Assembly (NCBI RefSeq): GCF_009765225.1
Contig: NZ_VMSF01000001.1
Span: 1,116,001-1,180,000 of the forward strand
DNA: 64,000 bases
DNA from: Leifsonia sp. AG29
Lineage (GTDB): Bacteria; Actinomycetota; Actinomycetes; Actinomycetales; Microbacteriaceae
Direction: 5' to 3'
Part shown: positions 51,029 through 57,007 of the stretch, piece by piece
Position numbering within the stretch: the stretch's first letter is position 1
How the letters are laid out: each line of letters opens with the position of its first letter
Position numbers and translations under genes: made by a program
The notes under the pieces: generated by a model
Seen by the model: the letters and a program-made list of their open reading frames with translations, nothing else
The model's database searches: none
Told to the model about the DNA's origin: nothing

Positions 51029-51049
51029 CGGGTTCGACAAGGAGGCGGA

Positions 51050-52117
51050 ATGCCGGGCGCGGTGACGAAATACCGGGTGGTCGTGATCGAGGACGACCCC
51101 GATGTGGCCTTCTTCATGAAGACGGTCCTCGAGAAGCGGGCCGATGCCCTGGTCACGGCGATCACCGATCCCTCCCTCGCCCTCTCGGTCATCGCCCAGT
51201 TCGAGCCCGACATCGTCGTCACGGACATCGAGATGCCCGGGATCTCCGGGCTCGACCTGCTGAAAGAGCTGCGCGGCCAGTACCCGGGCATGCCCGTCGT
51301 CGTCATGACGGCCCACGTCTCGGTCGACTACGCCGTCTCCGCCCTCCGCGCGCAGGCCGACGAGTTCCTCACGAAGCCCATCGCCTCCGCGGAGCTCGTG
51401 GCGATCGTGAACCGGCTCGCGGCGGAAGGGCGCACCAAGCGTGCGGCCCATCGTCAGCAGGTCGTCCTCGCCATCGGCGCCCATCCCGACGATGTCGAGA
51501 TCGGCGTCGGCGGGATCCTCGCCGCGCACCGCGACGCCGGAAACCAGGTCGTCATCCTCACCCTGTCGCGCGGGTCGCGCGGCGGCGACGCCGAGGACCG
51601 CCAGCACGAGTCCCTGGCGTCGGCGGAACTGCTCGGCGCCCGACTCTTCCTGGAGGACCTCGAGGACACGAAGATCCCGGTCGCCGACCCCACGGTGGGC
51701 ATCATCGAGCGCGTCGTGGCGGAGGTGAAGCCGGACATCGTCTACACGCACTCGTCGCACGACCGTCATCAGGACCATCAGGCGGTCCACGCCGCCACGG
51801 TCGTGGCGACCCGGACGGTCCGGACGGTGTGCTGCTATCAGAGCCCGTCGGCGACCATCGATTTCCGCCCGACGCGGTTCGTGCCGATCGACGGGTTCAC
51901 CGACACCAAGCTCCAGCTCATCGAGTGCTTCCGTTCGCAGACCGAGGTCCGCGACTACCTCGAGCCGGACCTCGTCCGCGCGACGGCGCGCTATTGGTCC
52001 CGGTTCGGTGGCGGCCGGAACTGCGAGCCGCTCGAGGTCATGCGCGACACCGCCGACATCTCCATGCCCGCCTCGTCGGTGGCCACCGACGTCCGAGTCC
52101 AGAGGACGGCGGAATGA
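51050..52117 (+). CDS. Receiver domain fused to PIG-L (LmbE) deacetylase
   Basis: A 355-residue fusion of two domains rarely found together. Residues 8-125 are a response-regulator receiver with the acidic pair ED D (EDDPDV), phospho-acceptor D59 (VTDIEMPG), T87 (MTAH) and K109 (LTKP). After a short linker a PIG-L domain (about 137-340) has both metal motifs, AHPDD at 144-148 and HQDH at 240-243. PIG-L enzymes remove acetyl groups from N-acetylglucosamine-type compounds (for example MshB in mycothiol synthesis). There is no DNA-binding domain, so phosphorylation would control an enzyme directly. It is the first gene of a seven-gene operon with a histidine kinase and overlaps the next gene by ATGA. 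The substrate is unknown. Confidence 0.9.
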   Translation: MPGAVTKYRVVVIEDDPDVAFFMKTVLEKRADALVTAITDPSLALSVIAQFEPDIVVTDIEMPGISGLDLLKELRGQYPGMPVVVMTAHVSVDYAVSALRAQADEFLTKPIASAELVAIVNRLAAEGRTKRAAHRQQVVLAIGAHPDDVEIGVGGILAAHRDAGNQVVILTLSRGSRGGDAEDRQHESLASAELLGARLFLEDLEDTKIPVADPTVGIIERVVAEVKPDIVYTHSSHDRHQDHQAVHAATVVATRTVRTVCCYQSPSATIDFRPTRFVPIDGFTDTKLQLIECFRSQTEVRDYLEPDLVRATARYWSRFGGGRNCEPLEVMRDTADISMPASSVATDVRVQRTAE

Positions 52118-53127
52118 CGGGAGCCGCACCGACCCGCGTGCTCGTCACAGGCGCCGGCGGACCGGCGGGCGTCGCGGTCATCCGCTCGCTCGTCGCCCGC
52201 CCGGACGTGGAGGTGCTCGCCGCCGACATGGACGGCTGGGCCAGCGGTCTCTACCTGGTCGCCGCCGAGAACCGGAGGATCGTCCCTCCCGGACGGTCGG
52301 CGGTCTTCGTGGACGAGCTCATCCGGATGTGCCGGGACGACCGGGTCGACGTCCTGTTCTCCACGGTGGACGTCGAGCTCCCCGGGCTGGCGGAGCGGAG
52401 GGACGATCTGCGCGCCGTGGGCGCCCTGCTGGCCGCGCCGAGTCACGACACGCTCGTCACCTGCCTCGACAAGCACGCGCTCGTGAAGCGCGTCGAGGGC
52501 TCGGCCCGGGTGCCTGTGACGCGCCTCCTGAACGGCGAGGGCGTTGGCGCCGACTGGCGGTTCCCCGTCATCGTGAAGCCGCGCAGCGGCGCGGGTTCGC
52601 GCGGCGTGCGGCTCGTCGCGGACCGTGTAGCGCTCGAAGAGCTGGGCGTCGACGAGTCGCTCATCATCCAGGAGAACCTCCCCGGGGACGAGTTCTCCGT
52701 CGACGTGCTCGCGGGACTCGACGGCGAGGTCATCGCCGCGGTCCCGCGGTCGCGCGAGCGGGTGGACTCGGGCGTGTCGATCGCGGGACGCACGGTCAAG
52801 CGCGCCGAGCTGTCCGACACGGCGGCGGCCGTCGCCCGGGCGATCGGGCTCACGGGCGTCGCGAACGTCCAGCTCCGCTACAGCTCGGAGGGGGTGCCGG
52901 CGCTGCTCGAGGTGAACCCGAGGTTCCCCGGAGCCCTGCCGCTCACGATCGCCAGCGGCGTCGACATGCCGTCCCTCCTGCTCGATCTGGTGCTCGGCCG
53001 CCCTGTGCCGTCGCGCGTCGAGTTCGAGGAGCTGGCCAACGTGCGTTATCTCGAGGACGTGTTCCTCCCGCCCGCGGAGGTGATCGTCTCCGAGAATGCG
53101 GCGCACACCGAGGGGCCGGGGGAGTGA
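52114..53127 (+). CDS. ATP-grasp ligase, carbamoyl-phosphate-synthase-like
   Basis: A 337-residue ATP-grasp enzyme. The N-terminal pre-ATP-grasp part starts VLVTGAGGPAGVAVIRSL and has LFSTVDVELPGLAE. The ATP-binding segment FPVIVKPRSGAGSRGVRLV supplies the lysine and glycine-rich loop, QENLPGDEFSVDVL follows, and the metal residues are in VPALLEVNPRFPGALPL. Such enzymes join a carboxylate to an amine or thiol through an acyl-phosphate. The acceptor is unknown. It overlaps both neighbours by 4 bp (ATGA, GTGA), so it should be made in fixed proportion with the PIG-L fusion and the PHP protein. Confidence 0.9.
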   Translation: MTGAAPTRVLVTGAGGPAGVAVIRSLVARPDVEVLAADMDGWASGLYLVAAENRRIVPPGRSAVFVDELIRMCRDDRVDVLFSTVDVELPGLAERRDDLRAVGALLAAPSHDTLVTCLDKHALVKRVEGSARVPVTRLLNGEGVGADWRFPVIVKPRSGAGSRGVRLVADRVALEELGVDESLIIQENLPGDEFSVDVLAGLDGEVIAAVPRSRERVDSGVSIAGRTVKRAELSDTAAAVARAIGLTGVANVQLRYSSEGVPALLEVNPRFPGALPLTIASGVDMPSLLLDLVLGRPVPSRVEFEELANVRYLEDVFLPPAEVIVSENAAHTEGPGE

Positions 53128-53891
53128 CCGCGCCCGGGCACGCCGAGCCGTCCCTCCTGCTCGGCGATCACCACGTGCACTCGACCTTCTCGGACGACGC
53201 CCGGAGCACCCTCGCCGAGAACATCGCGGCCGCGCAGGCGGCGGGCCTCGACCGGCTGCGGCTCACCGATCACGTGCGCGCCTCCACGACGTGGGTGCCG
53301 GAATTCCTCGCAGCGGTGGCGGCGGAGCCCGTTCCGGACGGTGTGACCGTGCTGACCGGCGTCGAGGCGAAGCTGCTCGATGCGTCCGGATCGGTGGACC
53401 TCCCTCCGGGCCTCGTCGTCGGCGAGGGAGGCGTGGACGCCATCGTGATCGGCGACCACCAGTTCCCCGGAACCGACGGTCCGTGGTCGCCGGAGAGCAC
53501 GCGCCGGAGGCTTGCGGCCGGCCTGTCGGCCGGTGACGCCCTGGACCTCCTCGTGCAGGGCAGCATCCGGGCGATGGAACGGACGCCCCGCGCGCAACTG
53601 GCGCACTGGTTCTCGATCCTCCCCAAGGTCGGCCTGTCCGAGGCGCAGCTCGGGGCGGATCGCCTCGCGGCCTGGGCCGACTCCGCCGCTGCGACGGGGA
53701 CGCTCGTCGAGGTGAACGAGAAGTGGGGGTGCCCCGGACCCGAGGCGATCGCGGCTCTGCGGCGAGCCGGCGCGCGCGTCGTCGCCTCGACCGACAGCCA
53801 TGCGGCCGAGGAGGTCGGGCGGTACGATCGGGTCGCGACCCTGTTGGCCGCGGCGGACGGTCTCGACACCCGGCAGGAGGAGCGCCCATGA
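53124..53891 (+). CDS. PHP-domain phosphoesterase, histidinol-phosphatase-like
   Basis: A 255-residue PHP protein. Metal motifs are LGDHHVHSTFSDDARST, RLTDHV, GVEAKLLD, IVIGDHQFPG, VEVNEKWG and VASTDSHAAEEVGRYD. The pattern is closest to the HisJ/YcdX type, which hydrolyse phosphomonoesters. The trinuclear site looks complete. Lying between the ATP-grasp gene and the membrane peptide in a coupled operon, it probably dephosphorylates an intermediate of the same pathway; histidine biosynthesis is unlikely since no his gene is near. The GTG start overlaps the previous stop. Confidence 0.88.
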   Translation: MTAPGHAEPSLLLGDHHVHSTFSDDARSTLAENIAAAQAAGLDRLRLTDHVRASTTWVPEFLAAVAAEPVPDGVTVLTGVEAKLLDASGSVDLPPGLVVGEGGVDAIVIGDHQFPGTDGPWSPESTRRRLAAGLSAGDALDLLVQGSIRAMERTPRAQLAHWFSILPKVGLSEAQLGADRLAAWADSAAATGTLVEVNEKWGCPGPEAIAALRRAGARVVASTDSHAAEEVGRYDRVATLLAAADGLDTRQEERP

Positions 53892-54043
53892 GCCCGGTGG
53901 AGCCCTCGCGCGAGCTGCGCGAGAAGCTGCAGCACGAGATCGAGCAGAACCGCCGGTGGGAGGCGCGCCTCCCGTGGTACGCCGCCGGCGCGCTGCTCGT
54001 CCTCGCCCTCATCGTCGTCGTGCGGGTGGTGTGGTTCTCGTGA
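53888..54043 (+). CDS. 51-residue single-pass membrane protein
   Basis: A very small gene: charged N-terminal helix (MSPVEPSRELREKLQHEIEQ, then NRRWEARLPW) followed by one transmembrane helix YAAGALLVLALIVVVRVVWF and a single terminal Ser. It overlaps the PHP gene by ATGA and the receiver gene by GTGA, which makes it very unlikely to be spurious. It may be a membrane anchor or modulator of the neighbouring histidine kinase. No family is recognised. Confidence 0.8.
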   Translation: MSPVEPSRELREKLQHEIEQNRRWEARLPWYAAGALLVLALIVVVRVVWFS

Positions 54044-54429
54044 CCGACCGGACCCGGCGCATCGTCATCGCCGACGACGACGACGACATCCGCGCGCTCA
54101 TGGTCATCGCCGCCGGCCGCGCCGGTGCCGAGGTCGCGGCCGCCGTCGACAACGGCGTCGCCGCGCTGGAGGCCGTCCGCGGCGGGGAGATCGACCTGGC
54201 CGTTCTCGACATCTCGATGCCCGGCCTCAACGGCATCGAGGTGGCGGACGCGATCCGGTCCGACGCGAGCACCCGCTCCACGCGCATCCTCATGGTGTCG
54301 GCATCGGTGCAGCTGCTCACGGACCACGGGACCGTGGCGGACAGATCGGACGGGTTCATCGTGAAGCCGTTCAGCCCGCGCCTGCTGTCGACGCGCATCC
54401 GGGAGATGCTGGAGGATCAGACCGCATGA
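54040..54429 (+). CDS. Stand-alone response-regulator receiver domain
   Basis: A 129-residue single-domain response regulator without output domain. The acidic cluster ADDDDDI, phospho-acceptor D57 (VLDISMPG), S88 (MVSAS) and K109 (IVKPF) are all present. It is directly upstream of the histidine kinase, overlapping it by ATGA, and is the likely first phosphate acceptor. Single receivers act as phosphate shuttles or as allosteric partners; here it could pass phosphate to or compete with the receiver-PIG-L fusion. The start is GTG. Confidence 0.92.
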   Translation: MTDRTRRIVIADDDDDIRALMVIAAGRAGAEVAAAVDNGVAALEAVRGGEIDLAVLDISMPGLNGIEVADAIRSDASTRSTRILMVSASVQLLTDHGTVADRSDGFIVKPFSPRLLSTRIREMLEDQTA

Positions 54430-56207
54430 CCATGGACCGCCTGCTGAGCCGGCTCTCCTTCGACTCGCCGTCGCCGCTGATCAAGCAGGTGCCGATCGTC
54501 GTCGCGTTCGTCCTCGCGCTCATCCTGACCTACTCGGTCGACGGCGTCGCACCGACCCGCCTCCCGGCGTACATCGTGGGGAGCGTGCTGGTGATCGCGC
54601 TGGCCACGGTGCTCGCGGCCGCCGTCCCGTGGAGCCGGATCCACCCCGGCTGGGTCGTCATCGTGCCCGTGCTGTCGCTGCTCGCCGTCGGCCTCTTCCG
54701 GCTCGGAACGGGCGGCGCCGCGTCGCCCGCCGGGGTGCTGATCCTGATCCCGTTCGTCTTCATCGCGGGGGAGGAGGGCCGCAGGAACATCGTCATCGCC
54801 GCCCTGAGCACCTTCGTGGTCCTGCTGATCCCGCTCTTCATCGCGGACGTCCTCACGACCCCGGCCGACAACGTCCGCGCGATCCTCTCGCCGTTCGTCT
54901 ACCTGATCCTCGCGATCATCGTGAACGAGCTCTCCCACCGGAGCCGGGTGCAGCTGGCCGCGGCCAATGCGGCCGCGGCGCAGCGGGAGGAGCTCCTCCA
55001 GCAGGCCGTGAAGGCGCAGGACGAGCTCGTGCTCAACGAGGCCCGGCTCAAGACGGCGAACCGCCTGATCCAGAGCATCTGGAACGCCGTCACCGAGCAG
55101 TCCGTGATCGGAACCGACCTCGACGGGGTCATCGACGTCTGGAACCCGGGCGCCGAGAAGATGCTCGGACTGACCGAGCAGCAGGTCGTCGGCGCCCGGC
55201 GGCACGTCACCGAGTTCCACCTGACGTCCGAGCTGGAGGAGCGCCTCCGCGGCCTCGATCCCCGCTTCACGACGCTCGCGAGCGCCGAGGACTTCTCGGC
55301 CCTCGTCGACACGGTGAGGGCCGGTTCGGCCGATGTCCGCGACTGGACCTACGTGCGCCCCGATGGGAAGCTCGTCCCCGTGCAGGTGGCGGCCACGCCG
55401 CGGCTGGACGAGAACGGGCACCGGGTCGGGTTCATCTTCGTGGCGACCGACATGACGCAGGCGCGCGAGTTCGCCCGCTTGAAGGACGAGTTCGTCGGCC
55501 TGATTTCGCACGAGCTGCGGACACCGCTCAGCTCGATCCTCGGCTACCTGGAACTGATGCGGGACGACGAGGACTCGCCGCTCTCCGACGAGCAGCTGCA
55601 GTACCTCGGCGTGGCCGAGCGCAACGCGCACCGGCTGCTCAAACTCGTGGGGGACCTGCTCTTCACCGCGCAGGTCGAGTCCGGACGGTTCCCCATCGAC
55701 ATCCGCGACGCCGAGCTCGGGTCGGTGGTCACCGCCTCCATCGAGACGGCCACGCCCGTCGCGGCCGCGGCCGGGGTGACCCTGCTGACCGACGTCCCCG
55801 ACGAGCCCGTGGACGTCCGCGGCGACACGATCCGTCTCGGGCAGGCCGTCGACAACCTGATCTCGAACGCCGTGAAGTTCACCCCGAGAGGGGGGACGGT
55901 CACCGTGTCCCTGCGCCGAGACGGCGGCGAAGCCGTCATAGCCGTGACGGACACCGGCATCGGGATCCCCGCGGTCGAGTTGAGCAGCCTCTCGCAGCGC
56001 TTCTTCCGCGCCTCCACCGCCACCCGCAATGCGGTGCCCGGCGTCGGTCTGGGGCTCACGATCACGAAGGCGATCGTCACGGCGCACGGCGGCCGGCTCG
56101 ACATCGCGAGCGAGGAGGGGGCCGGGACCTCGATCAGCCTGCACCTGCCCGTCGACACGCCGGTCCCCGTGTCCGATGCCCTGCCGAGCGCGGAGGCGGC
56201 GAGGTGA
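54426..56207 (+). CDS. Membrane PAS histidine kinase
   Basis: A 593-residue sensor kinase. The N-terminal 160 residues contain about five to six hydrophobic helices (VPIVVAFVLALILTYSV, ILIPFVFIAG, TFVVLLIPLFIADVL, PFVYLILAIIVNEL) and no large outside domain, so it may sense a membrane signal. A coiled coil leads to a PAS domain (about 215-345; AVTEQSVIGTDLDGVIDVWNPGAEKML). The HisKA domain has H362 in LISHELRTPLSSILGYLE, and the ATPase domain has the N box DNLISNAVKFTP, the G1 box DTGIGIP and the G2 box GVGLGLTI. It is coupled to the receiver gene before it and the nitrilase gene after it. Confidence 0.94.
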   Translation: MTMDRLLSRLSFDSPSPLIKQVPIVVAFVLALILTYSVDGVAPTRLPAYIVGSVLVIALATVLAAAVPWSRIHPGWVVIVPVLSLLAVGLFRLGTGGAASPAGVLILIPFVFIAGEEGRRNIVIAALSTFVVLLIPLFIADVLTTPADNVRAILSPFVYLILAIIVNELSHRSRVQLAAANAAAAQREELLQQAVKAQDELVLNEARLKTANRLIQSIWNAVTEQSVIGTDLDGVIDVWNPGAEKMLGLTEQQVVGARRHVTEFHLTSELEERLRGLDPRFTTLASAEDFSALVDTVRAGSADVRDWTYVRPDGKLVPVQVAATPRLDENGHRVGFIFVATDMTQAREFARLKDEFVGLISHELRTPLSSILGYLELMRDDEDSPLSDEQLQYLGVAERNAHRLLKLVGDLLFTAQVESGRFPIDIRDAELGSVVTASIETATPVAAAAGVTLLTDVPDEPVDVRGDTIRLGQAVDNLISNAVKFTPRGGTVTVSLRRDGGEAVIAVTDTGIGIPAVELSSLSQRFFRASTATRNAVPGVGLGLTITKAIVTAHGGRLDIASEEGAGTSISLHLPVDTPVPVSDALPSAEAAR

Positions 56208-57007
56208 GCGCTGTCGGAGTCGCGGTCGTCCAGTTCGCGCCGGGCGACGATCGGGTGCACAACAGGGATCTCGCCGCCGGGCTCATCGCCGTCGCGGCCG
56301 CGCGCGGAGCACGGCTCGTGGTTCTCCCGGAGTACTCGTCGTTCTTCACAGACCCGCTCGGACCCGCGTTCGCGCGCAACGCGGAGCCGCTCGACGGCGA
56401 CTTCGTGAAGGCTCTCGCGACGGCGGCGGAGACGCACGGGGTGCACATCATCGCCGGGCTCGTGGAGCGCACCGACGAGAAGCACAAGTTCTCGAACACG
56501 CTCGTGGCCGTCGATCCGGCGGGCGACGTCGTGGCGACCTATCGGAAGCAGCACCTGTACGACGCCTTCGGCTCGCGGGAGTCGGACTGGGTGGTCCCGG
56601 GTGAGCTCACCGAGCCCGCCGTCTTAACGGTCGACGGCTTGGCCGTCGGCATGCAGACCTGCTACGACCTGCGCTTCCCCGAGGTCACGCGACGCCTGGC
56701 GGACGCAGGAGCGCACCTCGTCGCGGTACCCGCGGAGTGGGTGCGCGGTCCGCTCAAGGAGCACCACTGGTCCACGCTGCTCGCCGCGCGCGCCATCGAG
56801 AACACGCTCTACATGGCGGCGGCCGACCACACGCCTCCGCTCGGCGTCGGCGCGAGCGCGATCGTCGACCCGATGGGCGTCACCGTCGCGGGACTCGCCG
56901 AGCAGGCCGGGATAGCGGTGGCCGAGGCGTCGACCGAACGCGTCGCAGAGGTCAGGGAGCGGAACCCCGCGCTGACGCTCCGGAGGTACCGGGTCGAGCC
57001 CCGCTGA
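56204..57007 (+). CDS. Nitrilase-fold carbon-nitrogen hydrolase, probable omega-amidase
   Basis: A 267-residue amidase. The catalytic triad is complete: Glu in VVLPEYSS, Lys in TYRKQHLYDAF and Cys in MQTCYDLRFPE. The CYDLRFPE form belongs to the Nit1/Nit2 branch, whose members include omega-amidases for 2-oxoglutaramate. The partner gene on the other strand is an aminotransferase of the kynurenine/glutamine-transaminase-K type, which makes the omega-amidase reading attractive. It is the last gene of the phosphorelay operon, overlapping the kinase by GTGA. The 3' end overlaps the aminotransferase gene by 56 bp. Confidence 0.88.
   Translation: MSAVGVAVVQFAPGDDRVHNRDLAAGLIAVAAARGARLVVLPEYSSFFTDPLGPAFARNAEPLDGDFVKALATAAETHGVHIIAGLVERTDEKHKFSNTLVAVDPAGDVVATYRKQHLYDAFGSRESDWVVPGELTEPAVLTVDGLAVGMQTCYDLRFPEVTRRLADAGAHLVAVPAEWVRGPLKEHHWSTLLAARAIENTLYMAAADHTPPLGVGASAIVDPMGVTVAGLAEQAGIAVAEASTERVAEVRERNPALTLRRYRVEPR

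Follow-up and report, generated by a model that had tools for sequence, protein, structure and literature searches.

In the 64,000-nucleotide stretch of the Leifsonia sp. AG29 genome analysed here (hereafter, the window; contig NZ_VMSF01000001.1, positions 1,116,001 to 1,180,000 of the forward strand), a single gene encodes a response-regulator receiver domain (REC) fused to a PIG-L/LmbE deacetylase domain. We consider it, on balance, probable that this REC-PIG-L protein is a phosphorylation-gated, zinc-dependent deacetylase working within a GT2/ATP-grasp glycan pathway and switched by the histidine kinase of its own operon. By sequence criteria, the protein is a response regulator with an enzymatic output, as it combines a full receiver, an enzyme in the same chain and a linked histidine kinase. 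More tentatively, and at a little below even chances, the family would form an undescribed class of response regulators in which a glycan N-deacetylase is placed under two-component control, lineages deprived of the pathway carry a dead but still-selected pseudoenzyme output, and another lineage carries a phosphate-blind pseudo-receiver.

The gene starts with an ATG at 51050, ends with a stop codon at 52115-52117 and is free of stops over its 355 residues. Its features are:

51050..52117, + strand: REC-PIG-L fusion gene, 355 residues, a single open reading frame, with the fusion conserved in relatives
51039..51045, + strand: AAGGAGG, a Shine-Dalgarno-like motif read from the sequence 5′ of the gene, probably its ribosome-binding element
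51077..51409, + strand: receiver domain, residues 10-120 (D15, D16, D59, T87, K109)
51455..52063, + strand: PIG-L/LmbE deacetylase domain, residues 136-338 (H145, D147, D148, H240, D242, H243)

The original prediction described one uninterrupted frame with a complete receiver, a complete PIG-L domain and both active sites intact, and its residue numbers proved correct. In fact, Response_reg (PF00072) matches residues 10-120 with 98.4 bits, far above the Pfam cut-off, and the phosphorylation set is complete (the acid pair D15/D16, D59, T87 and K109). PIG-L (PF02585) matches residues 140-253 with 86.6 bits against a cut-off of 28.2, and both of its motifs are complete, namely A144-H145-P-D-D148 (HPDD) and H240-Q-D-H243 (HxDH). 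Additionally, the AlphaFold2 model presents two well-formed domains, with a mean predicted local distance difference test (pLDDT) of 91.9 and a predicted template modelling score (pTM) of 0.76. The fusion is not a product of chance, as all 120 of the best-matching proteins listed carry both domains and it recurs in whole genomes; its conservation across relatives, together with this recurrence, rules out a sequencing or annotation artefact.

REC-PIG-L opens an operon, a setting that the original prediction had overlooked together with its kinase, its ATP-grasp enzyme and, in relatives, a GT2 synthase. In it, each of the six downstream genes overlaps the preceding one by 4 bases (with the starts chosen here, whose start codons were verified), and a tRNA-Met gene lies just upstream on the opposite strand. 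The downstream genes are, in order:

52114..53127, + strand: ATP-grasp ligase (PF15632), with a 4-bp overlap with REC-PIG-L; PRK12767-like but under the cut-off of that model
53124..53891, + strand: PHP-domain hydrolase (PF02811, 35.5 bits), GTG start, 4-bp overlap
53888..54043, + strand: small protein of 51 residues with one hydrophobic stretch; two congeners have counterparts of 58 and 61% identity; no match in a Pfam scan
54040..54429, + strand: single-domain response regulator (PF00072, 72 bits)
54426..56207, + strand: histidine kinase with PAS, HisKA and HATPase_c domains, whose N-terminal third is hydrophobic judging from its sequence; the likely source of the phosphoryl group for REC-PIG-L
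56204..57007, + strand: nitrilase-family amidase (PF00795), deaminated-glutathione-amidase-like, GTG start, 4-bp overlap; 238.8 bits with NF033621, under its cut-off of 355

Support for a functional link between these genes comes from relatives. For 107 PIG-L copies (L044-L149 and that of the window), we counted the partner genes located up to 6.5 kb away on the strand of the copy, although contig ends hide some partners. A copy was taken as fused when a receiver profile matched in the same frame with at least 25 bits, which gave 78 fused copies and 29 others, the latter including one degenerate copy (L066) and three with a pseudo-receiver (L110-L112). A kinase was found within 6.5 kb of 75 of the 78 fused copies and of none of the 29 others, with the reservation that the kinase profile was made from the family of this operon's kinase and could miss remote ones. 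Fused copies are also accompanied by ATP-grasp (54), PHP (53), GT2 (43) and nitrilase (36) genes; of the 29 copies not counted as fused, 22 are accompanied by ATP-grasp and GT2 and 4 by PHP. A similar association with the kinase is observed in a set of named genomes, consisting of the best 80 of 553 confirmed loci (42/55 fused versus 5/25 others), which shares some genomes with the counted set and is, consequently, not independent of it.

The two halves of the protein can also be told apart by what happens to them when partner genes are missing. Where a same-strand ATP-grasp gene lies within 6.5 kb, all six PIG-L residues are kept in 53 of 54 fused copies, and the only exception is an additional REC-PIG-L copy, encoded in one operon with another and degenerate in its receiver as well as at its PIG-L site (L118:11531-12505). 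Where it is absent, the six residues are intact in only 13 of 24 copies. The named set agrees with this (41/41 with ATP-grasp, 10/14 without). The absence is not a matter of relocation: in a search of 27 genomes for an ATP-grasp homologue (E ≤1e-20), two Leifsonia genomes were positive and 25 were negative, including all 24 behind the copies that lack the neighbouring gene and the genome of a copy with a degenerate N-terminus (G107). Likewise, GT2 was not found at 1e-30 in 23 of those 24 genomes, the exception being a weak match of 38% (G991). Apart from the L118 duplicate, the receiver residues (D, D or E, D, T and K) are kept in all 77 fused copies. Pairwise identities lead in the same direction, with PIG-L being the less conserved of the two domains in 22 of 1378 pairs of copies with ATP-grasp, but in 219 of 276 pairs among the 24 without it (58/66, 15/15 and 1/1 in three clades lacking this gene). 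In sequence terms, constraint moves from PIG-L to the receiver where ATP-grasp is gone. The mirror image is provided by the pseudo-receiver group (L110-L112), in which the operon-type kinase is missing, while the PIG-L site is intact and the pathway is kept. Thus, judging from these alignments, either half tends to decay where its partner genes are missing, and this two-way dissociation points to a receiver that likely works for the kinase and to PIG-L catalysis that likely works for the glycan pathway. The intact PIG-L site is, consequently, not universal, since in several lineages it is gone although the receiver remains, something that had been missed in the original prediction. The family offers a natural experiment, since copies with a dead deacetylase and a live receiver and copies with the opposite combination separate the roles of the two halves.

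Two sets of observations qualify this interpretation. Tip counts are not phylogenetically independent, and a tree-aware sign test of whether loss of ATP-grasp goes with broken catalysis was not significant, having too few independent pairs for that (3 when limited to starred branches, 7 over all branches); by parsimony, each trait changed 7 times among the 78 fused copies. A Fisher test on the tips, which ignores kinship, gives p 3e-6, and we do not rest the conclusion on it. On the other hand, D59 is present in all 55 fused copies of the named set, but the complete D-D-D-T-K set in only 45, with several Pseudomonadota copies showing an altered acid pocket or a Lys-to-Arg change in the receiver, so phosphorylation should not be assumed for every copy.

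The broken copies are also the main argument for an alternative that we regard as unlikely, although it has the most in its favour of those considered. PIG-L might be mainly a structural or binding output, with phosphorylation altering oligomerisation or partner binding and deacetylation being a separate inherited property that was lost in some lineages. This would account for the 11 copies, out of the 24 fused ones that lack ATP-grasp, in which a broken PIG-L site is combined with an intact receiver. It is also consistent with purifying selection on PIG-L in two pairs sharing a broken motif, where the ratio of nonsynonymous to synonymous substitution rates (dN/dS; Nei-Gojobori estimates for 21 pairs, rough and partly saturated) is 0.10 (L060/L131) and 0.17 (L059/L062), values low enough that these dead domains look still selected. 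However, the least constrained broken pair (L058/L136) reaches 0.44, closer to decay, and the near-complete retention of the six residues in copies with ATP-grasp, that of the window included, and the stronger conservation of PIG-L in these copies speak against a mainly structural output. If the class proposed above is real, in the lineages with a dead deacetylase the kinase would signal through the PIG-L fold and not through catalysis.

It is rather improbable that the receiver is only a phosphate sink or a competitor for the single-domain regulator at 54040-54429, leaving deacetylase activity unaltered. The presence of this second receiver gene within the operon would allow it, but in 16 of the 78 fused copies a same-strand kinase is present and the fusion is the sole receiver seen on that strand within 6.5 kb, and the receiver decays without the operon-type kinase while PIG-L remains intact. 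A role in a low-molecular-weight thiol pathway of mycothiol or bacillithiol type, with PIG-L deacetylating N-acetylglucosamine (GlcNAc)-inositol or GlcNAc-malate, is very improbable: BshB is among the nearest solved folds and REC-PIG-L is the only PIG-L match in the Leifsonia genome, but the best genome matches to MshA (144.3 bits against a cut-off of 462.5) and MshC (241.2 against 485.1) and the match to the BshB1 model TIGR04001 (84.5 against 182.5) fall short, the neighbouring genes encode ATP-grasp and PHP enzymes, joined by GT2 in relatives, and membership was rejected on these cut-offs, with no search made for BshA or BshC.

In the mechanism that we favour, the gated deacetylase, the operon kinase would phosphorylate Asp59 of the receiver, and this would turn the PIG-L domain on or, in the opposite direction, off. 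The switch would set the extent of de-N-acetylation of a glycan or glycolipid, presumably of GlcNAc type, made by a GT2 synthase that is encoded in the operon in relatives and elsewhere in the genome in Leifsonia. The amine exposed in this way would next be joined by the ATP-grasp enzyme to a carboxylate, possibly that of an amino acid, and the PHP enzyme would act as a phosphatase. Phosphotransfer from this particular kinase, the direction of the switch, the metal, the substrate and the sequence and chemistry of the reactions assigned to ATP-grasp and PHP are inferred. Genomic context (the kinase near almost all fused copies and receiver decay without it) supports the original prediction that phosphorylation might switch the deacetylase. 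Within the Leifsonia genus, GT2 lies outside the operon in 10 of 10 genomes searched, with a copy of 63-65% identity elsewhere in each, and in the genome of the window the gene is also located away from the operon. In a sister genus, the GT2 of locus L047 matches PF13641 above the cut-off; its best match among 20 families is PgaC/IcaA (TIGR03937, 128.2 bits), yet under the cut-off of 422.3, and it reaches 89 bits with the NodC model, also under the cut-off.

The charge of surface glycans depends on their de-N-acetylation, and a kinase-controlled deacetylase would, therefore, be a fast handle on the bacterial surface. From its gene context, REC-PIG-L is likely to tune the finishing of a cell-surface glycan. 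A receiver with a metabolic-enzyme output is informative because phosphorylation would act on chemistry at once, bypassing transcription.

Response regulators with enzymatic outputs include the CheB methylesterase, the PleD and WspR cyclases and PorX. Like them, REC-PIG-L has an N-terminal receiver with an intact phosphorylation site and a C-terminal enzyme in one chain, but its output is a PIG-L/LmbE deacetylase. Receivers on enzymes are, therefore, a known kind, and the new element is the deacetylase output, although databases name both domains automatically. In Nod-factor synthesis by NodC/NodB/NodA, a GlcNAc oligomer comes from a synthase, loses an acetyl group to a deacetylase and is acylated on the free amine by a third enzyme. 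The pathway proposed here may follow a comparable logic of synthase, deacetylase and amine-modifying enzyme, an analogy in which only the NodC model was compared; unlike the Nod enzymes, its deacetylase and ligase belong to other families and the deacetylase carries a receiver. Among solved PIG-L folds, the nearest include BshB and diacetylchitobiose deacetylase, and BC1534 and TT1542 were also matched; these matches are limited to residues 133-341, and no receiver is named in those entries. The closest parallel on the glycan side is found in Methanobacteriaceae, where REC-GT2 fusions (BcsA-like, PF13641) are reported in PMC5847659, for three genera only. The receiver there is joined to the kind of glycan synthase that relatives have in this operon, so it sits on the glycosyltransferase and not on a deacetylase. 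Neither PIG-L nor LmbE is mentioned in the main text of PMC5847659 or PMC3018481. The original prediction that such an output was not known to be described holds within the open-access library searched, which yielded no account of a PIG-L deacetylase with a receiver, the two main response-regulator censuses (Galperin 2006, 2010) being outside this scope.

The architecture is widespread, a point that had been missed originally. The best 120 of 4008 protein matches (including the query protein) all have both domains, at 65-100% identity. Because receiver matches crowd the candidate list, the PIG-L part alone was used as query in the surveys that follow. It matched 72 of 398 Microbacteriaceae genomes (E ≤1e-25), possibly a lower bound as at most 7 candidates were scored per genome. 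According to the fetched neighbourhoods, 64 of the 398 genomes encode PIG-L in one frame with a receiver, and the remaining 8 have unfused copies only or a degenerate N-terminus (G107). Of 297 genomes drawn across the order, 30 matched, as did 6 of 396 drawn across the phylum (E ≤1e-20), and not every one of these matches is fused. For comparison, the whole-protein query found the family in 25 of 150 genomes, and the PIG-L part alone in 34 of 150 (E 1e-8), the extra matches being weaker. In the named set, 55 of the 80 loci have a same-frame receiver, and both domains were recovered by Pfam in 7 of 7 scanned. These fused loci span Actinomycetota beyond the Microbacteriaceae, Pseudomonadota and further groups, and include ones from Microbacterium, Leifsonia, Leucobacter, Cellulomonas and Blastococcus, from metagenome-assembled genomes (MAGs) of Ilumatobacteraceae and Thermoleophilia, from Legionella rowbothamii and L. 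drozanskii, from Reyranella, Rhodospirillales, Lysobacterales, Marinicella and Burkholderiales MAGs, and from a Myxococcales and a Rhodothermales MAG.

Some neighbourhoods show further variations. Unfused PIG-L genes (L073, L074, L113-L117 and L138-L147) mostly occur with ATP-grasp and a PgaC-like GT2, as a receiver-free version of the pathway, and those of L073 and L074 have a hydrophobic N-terminus. The nitrilase-family gene is found upstream of the fusion in some genera and downstream in others. In Legionella rowbothamii (L180:1309-5456), GT2 is followed by a TPR-repeat protein of 854 residues, ATP-grasp and REC-PIG-L, and TPR proteins also occur near the fusion in L158 and L198. In these last two loci, both from gammaproteobacterial MAGs, a haem-NO-binding (HNOB) gene and a hybrid histidine kinase gene are divergent from REC-PIG-L (L158:12-2224 and L198:4167-6375); this combination of H-NOX and hybrid kinase beside the fusion occurs in 2 of the 80 named loci, where, judging from the domains, nitric oxide may be the input. 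Finally, a GlmS-like gene with SIS and glutamine amidotransferase domains lies a few genes past REC-PIG-L in L198 (L198:10513-12342), which would suit hexosamine supply.
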